A DNA stretch of 64,000 bases from assembly GCA_003209165.1 (NCBI GenBank), contig QCSL01000005.1:1-64000 (forward strand), in the 5' to 3' direction. The DNA comes from Synechococcus sp. AG-670-B23 (lineage in GTDB: Bacteria; Cyanobacteriota; Cyanobacteriia; PCC-6307; Cyanobiaceae). Shown here piece after piece: positions 54,125-61,561 of the stretch. Within the stretch, counting starts at the first letter, position 1. Each line of letters begins with the position of its first letter. The notes below the pieces were generated by a model that saw only the letters and a list, made by a program, of their open reading frames with translations, searched no databases and was not told the DNA's origin. A program made the translations under genes and the position numbers.

Positions 54125-55814
54125 TAAGCATCAGCCGCTGTTGCGCCCGCTCCTGAATCACGGAGCGGACCTGCTCGGCGCCGGTTGCATCGAGAAAGGC
54201 GGTGGGTTCATCGAGTACCTCCAGCGGTTGGTCCCGCAACCAGGCACGTAGCAGACCCATTCTATGAATTTCTCCTCCAGAGAAGGGATTCTGCGCGAGT
54301 GCCAGCGGTGCATCCAGACCGCCTGGGCGTTCCAGCAGGTGGGTCAGCCCCAGTCGCTGCAGCCAGACTTCGATGATCTGCTGCGGTCGCCCGGCTCCTA
54401 AGAGCAGGTTGTCGCGCAGGCTCGCCTCAAACAGCACAGCGTTCTGGGGGGCGTAAGCGATCAGCTGGTGCATCTGCCGAGCGCCGGCTAGTCCGCTGAG
54501 CAGCCATGCCTCCCCATGGCTGCTCAGCTCCCAATGGCTGTCTTCTTCGAGGAGCAAACCGCAGATACGATCGAGCAGGGTTGTCTTTCCGCTGCCGGAC
54601 GGTCCGGTTATGGCGACCAGTCTCTTGGCGCGCAGCGAGAGGGCCTCCAGGCTTCGTGATCCATCATCACGACGACTCCAACGCAACTCACTCCATCGTT
54701 GACGGGTGAGCCTGGTAAGCAAGTCCTTATTGATGGTTAGATCACTGGTTTCGTCCTGGCGGGGGATCAGTTGCCCGCGCCGTTGCCGCAGCGCTTCATA
54801 GCCAGGCAGGTTGCCAAGGCAGAGCCGGCGTGCCTGCACCACTGTGCTCAAGGATGAACTGGCCCGATAGGCCAGCACCAGGGTGGTGGTAAGGACTTCG
54901 GCGGTCAGGGTTTCACTCTGCAGCAGCATCCAAAGACCGGCGACGGCCACTACCAGGGTGTCTCGCCAGGCGTTGAAACTGGCCCGGCGGCGTACCCGTT
55001 CGCGTAGCAGCCAGCGACCTTCAGCGGTTTCCTTGGCGAAGCGCTTCAGCAGCCAGGCCTCAGCAGTCGCCGCACGCAGGGCTTTGAGGCCATGGAGACC
55101 ATCGCCAACGGTGCGTTGCAGGGCTGCATTGAGGCGGCTCTGGATCCGGCCAAGCCCCCAACTGCCCGAGCGCTGCAGCAAGGCCGCTGCAGTGGTGGCC
55201 AACAGGGCCAGCAAGAGCGGCCAGGCCTTGGCTTGGCCGACCAGCACCACGCTGGTGAGGTAAATCGCCATGGCCAGCAGTGACTGTCCCATGCGCACCG
55301 CCTGATCCAGGCTCAGCGCCGTGCGGTTGATGTCGGCCATCAAGAGGGCGAGCAGCTCGCCGCGCCCCAGCCTGTCGAGTTGGGCCGACGAGGCTTTGAA
55401 CACCTGATGCAGCAGCTGTTGCCGCAGCCGATCGGTGAAGCCGGAGCGCAGTCGCTCCCGGTTGATGTCGACCTGGGCCTGAATCAGACCACGTAGCAGG
55501 ATTGAGCCCACCAGCAGCCCGAGGCTGGCGGCAATGGGAATTCCGCCGATCAAGGGGCCGGCGTCCGCTCTGGAACCTGACCCCAGCAGCAGGGTGACTG
55601 CAAGGCCTAGCCCGGCGATGTCAAGCAGGCTGTTGAGAGTGCTCAACCCGCTTAGCAGGGCTAGATGAAGGCATCCCGCTTCTAGAGCCAATGCCTTGAG
55701 CAACTGGACCTGGCGCCGACGAGGCAGTGGGTGCTGGCCTGTTTCGTTCAAGGCAGATGACACAGTGGCTTGGTTTAACAGCCATGCTGGGCCCCAGCAA
55801 TGACCGTGAGCCAT
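54021..55814 (-). CDS. ABC transporter, fused membrane and ATPase domains
   Basis: A half-size exporter of about 597 residues from the ATG at 55814, or 580 from a GTG at 55763; the upstream-most in-frame ATG at 55931 would overlap the divergent NUDIX gene heavily. A six-helix domain (about 45-330 from 55814) is followed by the ATPase: Walker A GPSGSGKTTLL, an atypical signature FSGGEIHRM and Walker B LEVLDEPTAF. It resembles CydC/D or lantibiotic exporter types; substrate unknown. Its 3' end overlaps folK by 104 nt on the other strand. Confidence 0.8.
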   Translation of the reverse strand: MAHGHCWGPAWLLNQATVSSALNETGQHPLPRRRQVQLLKALALEAGCLHLALLSGLSTLNSLLDIAGLGLAVTLLLGSGSRADAGPLIGGIPIAASLGLLVGSILLRGLIQAQVDINRERLRSGFTDRLRQQLLHQVFKASSAQLDRLGRGELLALLMADINRTALSLDQAVRMGQSLLAMAIYLTSVVLVGQAKAWPLLLALLATTAAALLQRSGSWGLGRIQSRLNAALQRTVGDGLHGLKALRAATAEAWLLKRFAKETAEGRWLLRERVRRRASFNAWRDTLVVAVAGLWMLLQSETLTAEVLTTTLVLAYRASSSLSTVVQARRLCLGNLPGYEALRQRRGQLIPRQDETSDLTINKDLLTRLTRQRWSELRWSRRDDGSRSLEALSLRAKRLVAITGPSGSGKTTLLDRICGLLLEEDSHWELSSHGEAWLLSGLAGARQMHQLIAYAPQNAVLFEASLRDNLLLGAGRPQQIIEVWLQRLGLTHLLERPGGLDAPLALAQNPFSGGEIHRMGLLRAWLRDQPLEVLDEPTAFLDATGAEQVRSVIQERAQQRLMLISSHDPELLALADQVIVVEPTLALPLAKAPGQTS

Positions 55815-56373
55815 GGCGCCTTTGCCGTCGCCGGAACCGTTCGAGCTGCTTGACACCGTTGAGGCGGTGGACGTGGGCAAGCTCCGTTTTGAGCGCAACC
55901 GGATCAAGTTGCCCATGGGGGTTGAGGCCACCTTCGGGATGATTCGTCATCCTGGAGCTTCTCTCGCGGTGCCGATTTCGGATAATGGCCAGGTGGTGCT
56001 GCTGCGCCAGTACCGCTTCGCAGTGCAGGCCCGTCTGCTCGAGTTCCCCGCCGGCACCTTGGAAGAAGGGGAAGAACCCCTTGAGTCGATGAAGCGCGAG
56101 CTAGGGGAAGAAGCTGGTTACTGCGCAGCGAAGTGGGATGTGCTGGGGCCGATGCTCCCTTGCCCGGGCTACTCCGACGAGGTCATCCATTGCTTCCTGG
56201 CTCGGGAGCTCACACCCCTGGAGAACCCGCCAGCCGGCGACGACGACGAAGACCTTGAGGTGGTGCTGATGAGCCCATTGCAGCTGGACGCAGCGCTGGC
56301 ATCGGGCGATGAATGGCTCGATGGCAAAAGCGTCACTGCCTGGTTTCGTGCCAAGCAGCTACTCGGCCTCTGA
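55813..56373 (+). CDS. NUDIX hydrolase (ADP-ribose pyrophosphatase-like)
   Basis: A 186-residue hydrolase with a complete NUDIX box: G, five residues, E, seven residues, REL-x-EEAG (in GTLEEGEEPLESMKRELGEE, ~residues 76-95). VVLLRQYRFAVQARLLEFPAG before the box is typical of ADP-sugar pyrophosphatases. It probably cleaves ADP-ribose or a nucleotide sugar. The stop overlaps the phr start by 1 nt (TGATG), so the two are co-translated. Confidence 0.9.
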   Translation: MAPLPSPEPFELLDTVEAVDVGKLRFERNRIKLPMGVEATFGMIRHPGASLAVPISDNGQVVLLRQYRFAVQARLLEFPAGTLEEGEEPLESMKRELGEEAGYCAAKWDVLGPMLPCPGYSDEVIHCFLARELTPLENPPAGDDDEDLEVVLMSPLQLDAALASGDEWLDGKSVTAWFRAKQLLGL

Positions 56374-57806
56374 TGACATCCTCTCGCGTTCTCTTTTGGC
56401 ACCGCCGCGATCTGCGCCTGGCGGACAACTTGGGGATAGCAGCTGCTAGGGAGATAAGTCCAGCGGTGACGGGGGTGTATGTGCTCGATCCGCAGGTGAT
56501 TAACCCCCCTGAGCATTTGGTGCCAATGGCGCCGGCTCGGCTTTGGTTCCTGATCGAGAGCTTGGTTGAACTGCAGCAGCGCTGGCGGGATGCCGGGAGT
56601 CGTTTGCTGATCATCGAGGGCGACCCTCTGGTTGCGCTGCCGCAGCTGGCCCAGCAGATCGGTGCTGAAGCTGTGGTCTGGAACCGCGATGTGGAGCCCT
56701 ATTCCCGAGAGCGTGACCGACAGGTGGCCAAAAAGCTGCAGGCGGATGGCCGCAAGTTGTTGGTGGATTGGGATCAGCTGTTGATCGCTCCGGAGCTGCT
56801 CAAGACCGGCAGTGGAGATCCTTACCGCGTTTACGGACCTTTCCTGCGCAATTGGCGTGGTCAGGTGCTGGCCAAGCCGCCTAGCACAGTTGCCGCTCCC
56901 CCCGGTCTGGTGGATCTGGACCCCGCTCAAGTTCCGGCGGGAGATCCCTTGGTTGCACTGCGGGAAACTCATGGTTTCAAGGGCACCGAGATTTGCCCCT
57001 GTCGTCCCGGCGAGGCGGCAGCCTTGGAACAGCTCATCCGCTTCTGCGATGGAGCCCTTTTTGGCTATGAACCGGATCGCAATTTCCCCGGCACCGCTGG
57101 CACCTCATATCTGAGTGCGGCCCTGAGTGTGGGCACCCTTGGACCCCGCCAGGCCTGGTGTTCGGCCCAGGCGGCCCGGGAGCAGGCCCGAAGCTTGGAG
57201 CAATTGCATGCCATCGCTGTGTGGGAACAGGAGCTGGGCTGGCGCGAGTTCTACCAGCAGGCCATGTTCCATTTTCCGGAACTGGCCGACGGTCCCTTCC
57301 GCGAGCAGTGGCGCCGTTTCCCTTGGGATAACAACGAGGACTGGTTCGACTTCTGGAAGGAGGGCCAGACCGGCATGCCGATCATCGATGCTGCCATGCG
57401 TCAGCTCAGCCAGAGCGGCTGGATGCACAACCGTTGCCGCATGATAGTGGCCTCTTATCTGGTTAAAGACCTGATATGCGACTGGCGCTGGGGCGAGCGT
57501 GCCTTCATGGAGCTGGAGGTGGACGGAGATTTGGCCGCCAACAACGGCGGCTGGCAATGGAGTGCCAGCAGCGGCATGGATCCCAAACCCCTGCGGATCT
57601 TCAACCCTGCGACCCAGGCCTCGAAGTTTGATTCAGCTGGCGACTACATCCGCCAGTGGGTGCCGGAGCTGCGTCATGTGAACACCAAGGATCTGCTCAG
57701 CGGTGAGATCGGAGCTCTTGAACGGCGTGACTATCCGGAACCGCTGGTCGATCACAAGAAGCAGCAGGCCAAGTTCAAGGCCCTTTACGCCACAATCCGA
57801 TCCTGA
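56373..57806 (+). CDS. phr: Class I deoxyribodipyrimidine photolyase
   Basis: Light-driven repair of cyclobutane pyrimidine dimers. The 477-residue protein starts at ATG 56373 and opens RVLFWHRRDLRLADN, the antenna-domain start. The FAD domain is clear: MPIIDAAMRQLSQSGWMHNR and MIVASYLVKDLICDWRWG (~345-380), then NNGGWQWSASSGMDPKPLRI (~389-408). The sequence fits cyanobacterial photolyases with a deazaflavin antenna. Its 3' end overlaps the convergent DegT gene by 22 nt. Confidence 0.96.
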   Translation: MTSSRVLFWHRRDLRLADNLGIAAAREISPAVTGVYVLDPQVINPPEHLVPMAPARLWFLIESLVELQQRWRDAGSRLLIIEGDPLVALPQLAQQIGAEAVVWNRDVEPYSRERDRQVAKKLQADGRKLLVDWDQLLIAPELLKTGSGDPYRVYGPFLRNWRGQVLAKPPSTVAAPPGLVDLDPAQVPAGDPLVALRETHGFKGTEICPCRPGEAAALEQLIRFCDGALFGYEPDRNFPGTAGTSYLSAALSVGTLGPRQAWCSAQAAREQARSLEQLHAIAVWEQELGWREFYQQAMFHFPELADGPFREQWRRFPWDNNEDWFDFWKEGQTGMPIIDAAMRQLSQSGWMHNRCRMIVASYLVKDLICDWRWGERAFMELEVDGDLAANNGGWQWSASSGMDPKPLRIFNPATQASKFDSAGDYIRQWVPELRHVNTKDLLSGEIGALERRDYPEPLVDHKKQQAKFKALYATIRS

Positions 57807-59687: not shown

Positions 59688-60191
59688 ATGCCGCGTCAGC
59701 GTCTGCTTTGGGGAGTTGCGCTGTTGTTGGTAGCTTGCGGTGCCCCGAAGGAACCGCCCAGCTGGAGGTTGTTCCCCCTGCAGCGCTTCACTCCCCATGA
59801 CGGGGTGGCTGTGGTCAACCAGCCCGATGGCTATGGGCTCCATATCTTTATCGAAACTGACACCAGCTTTCCGGGGGTGTGTAGTCCCCGTTGGCTTCCA
59901 GACCCAGCCCGCCTGTTCAATGGCAATGGATCCACACCGTTCAGTTCCGGGCTGGCCACCCGTCGGGAGTTTTTCGAAGCGGTGGCTCGGCGTGATGTGC
60001 GTGCTCTGTTGGAGAAGGAACTCAAGGCCCTCTGCCAGGCCCGTGCACCGGAAGACCGCTGGCAGTGGACCGAGCCGCCGCTGAAAGAAGACCAGGTCAT
60101 TCCCGTGAAGTTGCCCGCTCTCGAGGAAGAGGACCTGCTCACTAATCCTGTGGAGGAACTGAAGCGGGACCGGCAGCTGCTAAGGGATTAG
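59688..60191 (+). CDS. Small lipoprotein of unknown function
   Basis: A 167-residue protein with a lipoprotein signal: basic start, hydrophobic core and the lipobox LVACG (Cys17). The mature part is acidic near the C-terminus (KLPALEEEDLLTNPVEELKR). I recognise no domain. It ends in a 4-nt convergent overlap with the photolyase-like N-half gene. Its start faces the divergent thioredoxin-fold gene over a 57-bp gap. Confidence 0.75.
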   Translation: MPRQRLLWGVALLLVACGAPKEPPSWRLFPLQRFTPHDGVAVVNQPDGYGLHIFIETDTSFPGVCSPRWLPDPARLFNGNGSTPFSSGLATRREFFEAVARRDVRALLEKELKALCQARAPEDRWQWTEPPLKEDQVIPVKLPALEEEDLLTNPVEELKRDRQLLRD

Positions 60192-60628
60192 CAGGCTGGC
60201 GAGTAGCCCTTCCACACCACCGCTTCGGCTTCACGCCAGTAGCGGCTGAACCGCCCCAGCCGAGGTGGCCTTGGCAGCTCCACGAATGCCTCTGGATCCA
60301 GGAGGCCCAGAGGCAGTTCTGCATCGATGGCCTCGCCAATGCGCTTCAGGCGGGGATCCACCGCGCTGCTGCTCACAACGCCATCGGCCTGATGGCGACG
60401 GGCAAAAGCAAGCACCTCAGCGGCCACATCTCCCTTGCGCAGGGTGAGGGGAAGGTTGAGGGCATTTTCGTAGAGGAAGCCAAGGCGTTTGCGGCTGATT
60501 TTTGCGTCTTGGATCCATCGGGTGTCAAACACGAACACCGCTGGGGCCTCGGGCCAAGCTTGCAGTGCCGGGTTGTTGGCACCGAGAGCTTCCTCGTGAA
60601 TCCAGAGGATGGGGCGTTGAAAGGTCAT
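60188..60628 (-). CDS. Photolyase-type N-terminal (alpha/beta antenna) domain as a separate protein
   Basis: A 146-residue protein that starts PILWIHEEALGANNPAL and shows AVFVFDTRWIQDAKISRKRL, then LALRKGD-like LTLRKGDVAAEVLAFARRHQ, the beta-alpha pattern of the photolyase antenna domain. It stops where the FAD domain would begin. The FAD-domain gene lies immediately upstream on the same strand, separated by 21 nt. The two halves are thus in reverse order relative to an ordinary photolyase. It may form a complex with that half. Confidence 0.7.
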   Translation of the reverse strand: MTFQRPILWIHEEALGANNPALQAWPEAPAVFVFDTRWIQDAKISRKRLGFLYENALNLPLTLRKGDVAAEVLAFARRHQADGVVSSSAVDPRLKRIGEAIDAELPLGLLDPEAFVELPRPPRLGRFSRYWREAEAVVWKGYSPAC

Positions 60629-60649
60629 GGGGGAATGGGAATCTCCTGC

Positions 60650-61561
60650 TTATCGCTTGGGACGGGCCAGGGCGGCACTGGCGCCCCCGCTGCTCCGGCT
60701 TTGGCGGTTGCGTTGCTGGTTTCGGCTCTTGCCGCTGTCCGGAATGGTTGGTATCGGGGTGAACAGCTGGTTCTCCAGTTGCTCATAGCTGCCCTCGAAC
60801 GGGCAGCTTTTGGCACAGGGGCAGCCGTCGCAGTAACTCCCGTCGCTGTAGCGCTCTAGGTTGCCGCGGTTGAAGAAGTACGGCTTGTGGCTGAAAGTGC
60901 TGGCCACCCACTGCCAGCTCAGGTGGTTGCTGGCCGGATCGCCATCCAGCAGGTGCTGCATGAACCAGTCGGCACCGGCTTTCCAGTGCACCCGCCGCCA
61001 ATGCACGAGCCAGGCGGCCATCCACATGCGGGCGTGGTTGTGCAGCCAGCCGGTGGTTATGAGTTGATCGCGGAAGCCATCCATGCAGGCCAGTCCTGTG
61101 GTCCCATCGCGCACATCGGTCGGTAGCTCACGGGAATAGGCACCAGCGTCATGGCCCGTCTTGAACGGTTCCTGATCGTTGTTGATGCCGTCACCCAGAT
61201 CGAGCCACATCCGTTGCCAGAAGTCGCGCCAACCGAGCTCGTTGATCAACTTTCCGCCTTCATCGCGGTTGCGAATCCGTGCAAAGACCGAATCGCGAAC
61301 CTCCGCCAGGGTCAGCACGCCGTGGCGGATGTAGGGCGACAGCCCGGTGACCGCGCCCTTGAGGTTGTTGCGGCTTTTGGCGTAGCGCCTTGCATCAATG
61401 CGTCGCAACTTCTCATCAGCCGCTTCTCGACCACCGCGGATTGGGCTGAGCTCCCCTTCAGCCTCCGGGAACTCCTGTGCCAACAGGGTGTTTAAGGCAT
61501 CGCGGGACGCGAATTGACGTGGCAGGTCGCCGTTGATGGAAGGTGGTGCAGCGCTGGGCAA
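60650..61561 (-). CDS. Photolyase/cryptochrome FAD-binding domain protein with a four-Cys motif
   Basis: A 303-residue protein matching only the FAD-binding half of the photolyase/cryptochrome family: RRYAKSRNNLKGAVTGLSPY (~59-78), LGWRDFWQRMW (~109-119), TTGWLHNHARMWMAAWLVHW (~169-188) and NHLSWQWVASTFSHKPYFF (~212-230). Cys244, 247, 249 and 253 form CX2CXCX3C near the end of the domain and could bind a metal or Fe-S cluster. The tail is Arg/Ser-rich. The antenna-type half is a separate gene downstream. Whether it repairs DNA or senses light is unknown. Confidence 0.78.
   Translation of the reverse strand: MPSAAPPSINGDLPRQFASRDALNTLLAQEFPEAEGELSPIRGGREAADEKLRRIDARRYAKSRNNLKGAVTGLSPYIRHGVLTLAEVRDSVFARIRNRDEGGKLINELGWRDFWQRMWLDLGDGINNDQEPFKTGHDAGAYSRELPTDVRDGTTGLACMDGFRDQLITTGWLHNHARMWMAAWLVHWRRVHWKAGADWFMQHLLDGDPASNHLSWQWVASTFSHKPYFFNRGNLERYSDGSYCDGCPCAKSCPFEGSYEQLENQLFTPIPTIPDSGKSRNQQRNRQSRSSGGASAALARPKR

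Follow-up and report, generated by a model that had tools for sequence, protein, structure and literature searches.

The phr4/phr5 pair and its described relatives

The gene pair analysed here is already known: it was named phr4/phr5 in marine Synechococcus by Haney et al. (2022, mBio, PMC9426592). Disruption of phr4 was found to lower UV-C survival 20–30 fold but not UV-B survival, and a repair-deficient E. coli carrying phr4/phr5 was protected against UV-C, light making no significant difference compared with the dark (PMC9426592). The same authors proposed (6-4) repair from the cysteines, together with a possible +1 frameshift, and reported as a common trait a junction of seven G-C pairs that gives a frameshift and is constant between strains (PMC9426592).

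Several other groups of photolyases resemble the pair in part. SPLs (Xu et al. 2021; SePhrC of S. elongatus) are described as being without the alpha/beta domain (cited in PMC9649867 and PMC9178010), and PMC9649867 describes them as CPD-repair enzymes. Phr4 shares with them a length of about 300 aa, the absence of an N-terminal antenna domain, a class I-like active site and four conserved cysteines; in contrast to that description, this genome and almost every SPL genome examined have an antenna-type half, which lies downstream, C-terminally or elsewhere in the genome. NewPHL proteins, which are described as single-strand CPD photolyases with inverted topology and whose Prochlorococcus relative is called phr7 in PMC9426592, also have the FAD domain first and the second domain C-terminal, but they form a single chain without Fe-S cysteines, whereas the present pair is split and carries the predicted Fe-S cysteines. 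FeS-BCPs, or prokaryotic (6-4) photolyases (A. tumefaciens PhrB, S. elongatus SePhrB), resemble Phr4 in their Fe-S cysteine positions and the fold of the FAD half, but differ in a DPRP-type N-terminal domain, ordinary domain order, a separate clade and a lesion-site His pair in place of N175/M179. Class I CPD photolyases have an N-terminal antenna domain and a C-terminal FAD domain in one chain, unlike the pair, which is reversed, split and in a separate clade.

The pair lies in a stretch of 64,000 nucleotides from Synechococcus sp. AG-670-B23 (contig QCSL01000005.1; hereafter, the window). As in the marine Synechococcus and Cyanobium loci of Haney et al., where the fused form is called phr6, the two ORFs are adjacent, in the same reversed order and several genes from phr3, and the four-cysteine spacing is the same. 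Junction spacing and frame vary between strains, and the (6-4) repair and frameshift proposed for those loci are not favoured here. The sequence-only reading had recognised a split photolyase in reversed gene order with 21 nt between its halves, and this was confirmed: two minus-strand ORFs encode the FAD half and then the antenna half at the coordinates below. An earlier published description of the pair, which that reading had named as grounds against it, exists in Haney et al. The features are as follows.

60650..61561, minus strand: phr4, catalytic half that binds FAD, 303 aa; starts with TTG, where relatives have GTG
60188..60628, minus strand: phr5, antenna-type alpha/beta half, 146 aa
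60629..60649, minus strand: phr4-phr5 junction, 21 nt, with AGGAG at 60643-60647
61085..61087, minus strand: Cys159 codon, predicted Fe-S ligand 1, in the column of the first conserved FeS-BCP Cys
60803..60832, minus strand: Cys244, Cys247 and Cys253 codons, predicted Fe-S ligands 2–4; Cys249, inside this stretch, is not conserved
60872..61246, minus strand: phr4 FAD and lesion site, approximately residues 106–230, with E108, W111, N175, M179, N212, W216 and W218 kept
56313..57806, plus strand: class I CPD photolyase, full length, corresponding to phr3 of Haney et al.; not part of the pair

The last of these is the full class I photolyase that had been noted near the pair, and the distinction drawn between the two holds, the pair being split, reversed and placed in a separate clade of the tree. 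Phr4 matches PF03441 (5.6e-23), the match to FAD_binding_7 being partial (about 127 of 203 profile positions). Since the pair is present genus-wide and far beyond, phr4 and phr5 are not chance ORFs. The draft genome carrying the window (2.27 Mb, 87.7% complete) also encodes a 492-aa photolyase-type protein and a 519-aa DPRP-type protein; the 56313-57806 gene and these two proteins fit phr3, phr1 and phr2, respectively, of PMC9426592. A viral origin was considered and rejected: no relative was found in viral contigs at the sensitivity used, and the phage records matched showed just weak, ordinary photolyase-like similarity (about 26–32% identity).

Two neighbouring ORFs may be mentioned. A 167-aa lipoprotein-like ORF on the plus strand (59688-60191), with no Pfam match, shares 4 nt with the 3' end of phr5. 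An ORF at 55813-56373 was judged NUDIX-like by eye; it runs into the beginning of the class I photolyase ORF, which has the same orientation, and the arrangement over 55813-57806 is like the nudix-photolyase operon reported for Prochlorococcus MED4 (PMC9649867).

Predicted folds, lesion site and cysteines

Phr5 matches PF00875 weakly (21.7 bits, below the cut-off), and a PDB sequence search with it returned no match at E 0.1. Comparison with ordinary N-terminal antenna domains using hhalign gave a probability of 96.7 and an E-value of 4e-10, with gaps in Phr5, which is shorter than those domains; against the C-terminal Z-domain of NewPHL the probability was 11. The fold predicted by AF2 has a pLDDT of 93.5, and nearly all of the top 50 PDB matches returned by Foldseek for this model were photolyases or cryptochromes, matched via the antenna domain. 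Profile and model clearly point to a Rossmann-like antenna fold for Phr5, homologous to photolyase N-terminal domains. Its conserved residues are W9, H11, R48, Y53, E54, R126 and F127.

For two-domain structure prediction, a naturally fused relative from Synechococcus sp. HJ21-Hayes (L151) was used as a stand-in for the window pair, and both domains were predicted with confidence (pLDDT 89.7, pTM 0.89). The FAD half of this model matches photolyases, with prokaryotic (6-4) photolyases among the best structural matches. No match to the DPRP domain was found in Phr4 or Phr5.

At the lesion and flavin sites, alignment shows that Phr4 keeps E108, W111, N175, M179, N212, W216 and W218, which we take, from standard class I photolyase knowledge, to be the equivalents of E. 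coli E274, W277, N341, M345, N378, W382 and W384. The residues checked at both sites are of the repair type. Elsewhere in the alignment the lesion site of FeS-BCPs has a Q and a His pair (YAHHIQR), and that of the (6-4)-like L234 reads LHHLSRH. Judged by this alignment, the lesion-site residue set of Phr4 is CPD-type. In the catalytic-domain tree, Phr4, the other SPLs and NewPHL-like proteins, the latter labelled from annotation and domain layout, form one clade (UFboot 94); the other ordinary-order photolyases and the cryptochromes stand apart (95), and FeS-BCPs are likewise separate.

The suggestion that the pair serves light sensing found no support in these data. A cryptochrome-like blue-light sensor that is no repair enzyme would agree with the light-independent protection of E. 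coli after UV (PMC9426592), but all repair-type residues are kept, the published phr4 mutant is 20–30 times more sensitive to UV-C (PMC9426592), and members of the SPL/NewPHL clade are described as CPD-repair enzymes; we hold this reading to be very doubtful. As for the other suggestion of the sequence-only reading, repair of another lesion, Haney et al. favour (6-4) products, but the residues seen here point to CPDs.

The FAD half had further been read as carrying a CX2CXCX3C string that could hold a metal or Fe-S cluster. The string is indeed present, but it was rejected as a metal motif because C249 is not conserved, and the conserved C159 lies outside it. An alignment of 12 Phr4 sequences shows no variation at C159, C244, C247 and C253 and has C249 solely in the window's Phr4; at that position almost all close relatives have P or S, and no aligned relative has Cys. 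The same four cysteines are nearly invariant in a wider alignment of 30 sequences. C159 aligns with the first conserved Cys of cysteine-bearing FeS-BCPs, and YC-x2-C also matches FeS-BCP. The spacing of the four (+85, +3, +6) equals that of RS9916 Phr4 (C169, C254, C257, C263), and in Chloroflexota relatives the CX2C...C part is present in 25 of 25 and the upstream Cys, in the pattern searched, in 24 of 25. Taken together, the four conserved cysteines, the FeS-BCP columns, the RS9916 spacing and the Chloroflexota patterns make it likely that Phr4 binds a 4Fe-4S cluster through C159, C244, C247 and C253. The possible Fe-S site of the sequence-only reading is hence retained with altered ligands, C159 and C244-X2-C247-X5-C253. 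One SPL studied by Xu et al. in 2021 reportedly contains FAD and an Fe-S cluster and repairs CPDs in vitro.

These residues bear directly on the proposal of Haney et al. 2022 that Phr4/Phr5 is a (6-4) photolyase. The match of the four conserved cysteines to FeS-BCP columns is consistent with it, as are the sensitivity of the phr4 mutant to UV-C but not UV-B (PMC9426592) and the place of prokaryotic (6-4) photolyases among the structural matches of the FAD half. Against this, E108, N175 and M179 form a CPD-type lesion site where FeS-BCPs have Q and the His pair, the tree puts Phr4 with SPL/NewPHL and not with FeS-BCP, and SPLs are CPD enzymes according to PMC9649867. A (6-4) specificity deduced from the cysteines alone is disfavoured by the lesion-site residues, and we regard the proposal as improbable.

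Junctions and co-occurrence of the two genes

In the window, phr5 is in frame with phr4 across the 21-nt gap, and the AGGAG stands 14 nt before the phr5 ATG, approximately 7 nt further than in close relatives. The pair is therefore without the junction trait reported by Haney et al., and homology, order and context still place it in the phr4/phr5 family. Across 42 genomes, phr5 is in frame 0, 1 or 2 relative to phr4 in 12, 4 and 26 cases, respectively, with gaps ranging from -7 to +22 nt. At many of these junctions stop and start codons overlap by 1 nt or 4 nt, or AGGAG precedes phr5, and such sequences fit two products made by coupled translation rather than one made by programmed frameshifting. 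A +1 frameshift was rejected as a general mechanism, since all three frames occur among relatives. The alternative put forward by Haney et al. (2022), in which programmed +1 frameshifting would join the two ORFs into a single protein, draws some support from the existence of single-gene fused homologues; with such varied frames and gaps, with overlaps and AGGAG sites suited to two coupled products, and with the genes far apart in many filamentous cyanobacteria, it appears scarcely credible.

The co-occurrence of the halves was followed in 386 cyanobacterial genomes drawn evenly, with Phr4 in 82 and Phr5 in 83. Both were found in 81 genomes, Phr4 without Phr5 in 1, Phr5 without Phr4 in 2 and neither in 302. 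Fisher's test gives 4e-80, which is not a true probability because the genomes are related and the counts are not phylogenetically independent. The genes lie within 60 nt of one another in 34 of the 81 pairs and within 3 kb in a further 25, two of these being fused; 12 pairs are separated by 25 kb to 4.9 Mb on a single contig and 10 are split between contigs, and genes lying far apart are found in many filamentous cyanobacteria. The halves thus travel together across cyanobacteria even where their genes are megabases apart, and this is the new point of the analysis.

Three genomes break this pattern: in G082 the FAD protein is divergent and has a C-terminal extension of its own, in G380 the Phr5 sits at a contig end, and in G422 the Phr5 is truncated. 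The G082 protein (L117:1316-2671) is SPL-like and without Fe-S cysteines; its extension, which may represent a remote fused antenna, ends in RSFSQFWEVARDQLVW, similar to the end of Phr5. Another genome has a second phr4-phr5 pair (L131; G326 contig 1, near 293 kb) that is partial and looks like a decaying duplicate.

The association extends to the named SPLs and beyond cyanobacteria. Each of the 18 named SPL genomes searched (18/18) gave exactly one Phr5-like match, and 17 of the 18 had no antenna match in the fetched flanks; the match in the Chloroflexota genome G525 covers the last 60% of the profile, in a gene away from the SPL locus. Natural fusions with the same domain order occur in Deinococcus (on plasmids), picocyanobacteria, Planctomycetes, Acidobacteria and Eremiobacterota. 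Among 400 evenly drawn Chloroflexota genomes an Fe-S SPL was found in 25, of which 2 are fused, 19 have an antenna gene within about 1.5 kb and G525, the 22nd with an antenna, has it elsewhere; at 3 Chloroflexota SPL loci no antenna gene was found within the 1.5-kb flanks. The counts rest on the cyanobacterial sample of 386 genomes and on that from Chloroflexota, as a contig sample ranked by a fused query is biased to two-domain loci.

In one further genome (G045) a phr5-like gene begins 3 nt after the SPL gene (L085), and the antenna domain of its class I photolyase is nearly identical to that of the solved Anacystis nidulans enzyme. From these observations, SePhrC, the SPL of S. elongatus, probably has an antenna partner. 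More generally, we lean slightly towards the view that Fe-S SPLs as a class depend on an antenna/cap subunit, supplied as a C-terminal domain, by the gene that follows, or in trans by one at an unlinked locus.

Proposed mechanism and antenna pigment

We consider it probable that phr4/phr5 encodes a two-subunit Fe-S SPL photolyase with a separate antenna/cap subunit, most likely acting in CPD repair. From the observed conservation, co-occurrence, junctions, residues and predicted folds, we infer that Phr4 and Phr5 would form a heterodimer. Phr4 would carry FAD, the probable 4Fe-4S cluster (C159, C244, C247, C253) and the lesion pocket, and Phr5, translated separately, would dock on it in the manner of the C-terminal domain of naturally fused relatives. 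The substrate would be a UV lesion, with a cyclobutane pyrimidine dimer the likeliest, which Phr4 would flip into the pocket and split using electrons transferred from FADH- under light. The flavin side of Phr4 would be capped by Phr5, which may also hold an antenna pigment feeding energy to the flavin, probably not 8-HDF in this genus.

A simple CPD photolyase is expected to be light dependent and important after UV-B. The equal protection of E. coli in light and dark and the lack of UV-B sensitivity of the phr4 mutant accordingly argue against such a simple enzyme. Binding of damage by a photolyase, aiding excision repair, would explain light-independent protection in E. coli.

The identity of any pigment is constrained by the genomes. 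A search of 34 genomes of the genus, including 19 that are near complete, found no CofH, and CofG had no match among those members of the genus that were listed in the family sample; CofH is present in picocyanobacterial relatives with the fused gene and in other cyanobacteria. With no FO synthase in the genus, 8-HDF is unlikely as an antenna pigment unless it is taken up. The absence of CofH from the 34 genomes also makes it probable that the class I photolyase (Phr3) uses something other than 8-HDF. The best score of that photolyase was against the 8-HDF-type model, below that model's cut-off.

A variant of the two-subunit reading makes Phr5 a structural cap or DNA-binding partner without any antenna pigment. 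It would accord with the CofH and CofG results, by which 8-HDF is not home-made, and with the short Phr5 and its gaps in the hhalign alignment. The residues conserved in its antenna fold, W9, H11, R48, Y53, E54, R126 and F127, speak against it, and folate, lumazine or flavin pigments are possible; we judge the variant somewhat unlikely.

What the analysis adds to the published description of phr4/phr5 is the co-occurrence irrespective of linkage, a corrected set of cluster ligands, the CPD-type site, the evidence from the junctions and the absence of FO synthase. The results question the (6-4) specificity and the frameshifting suggested for the pair, as well as the 8-HDF antenna that has been assumed for photolyases in marine Synechococcus. 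The linkage-independent co-occurrence offers a direct way to ask if the antenna of a photolyase can be an obligate subunit in its own right. It is also relevant to the claim that all photolyases and cryptochromes descend from antenna-less SPLs. If the dependence on an antenna/cap subunit is true of the class, the Fe-S SPLs would be a type of photolyase with an obligate separate antenna subunit rather than an antenna-less one, and the view of SPLs as simple one-domain ancestors of the photolyase family would be undercut.
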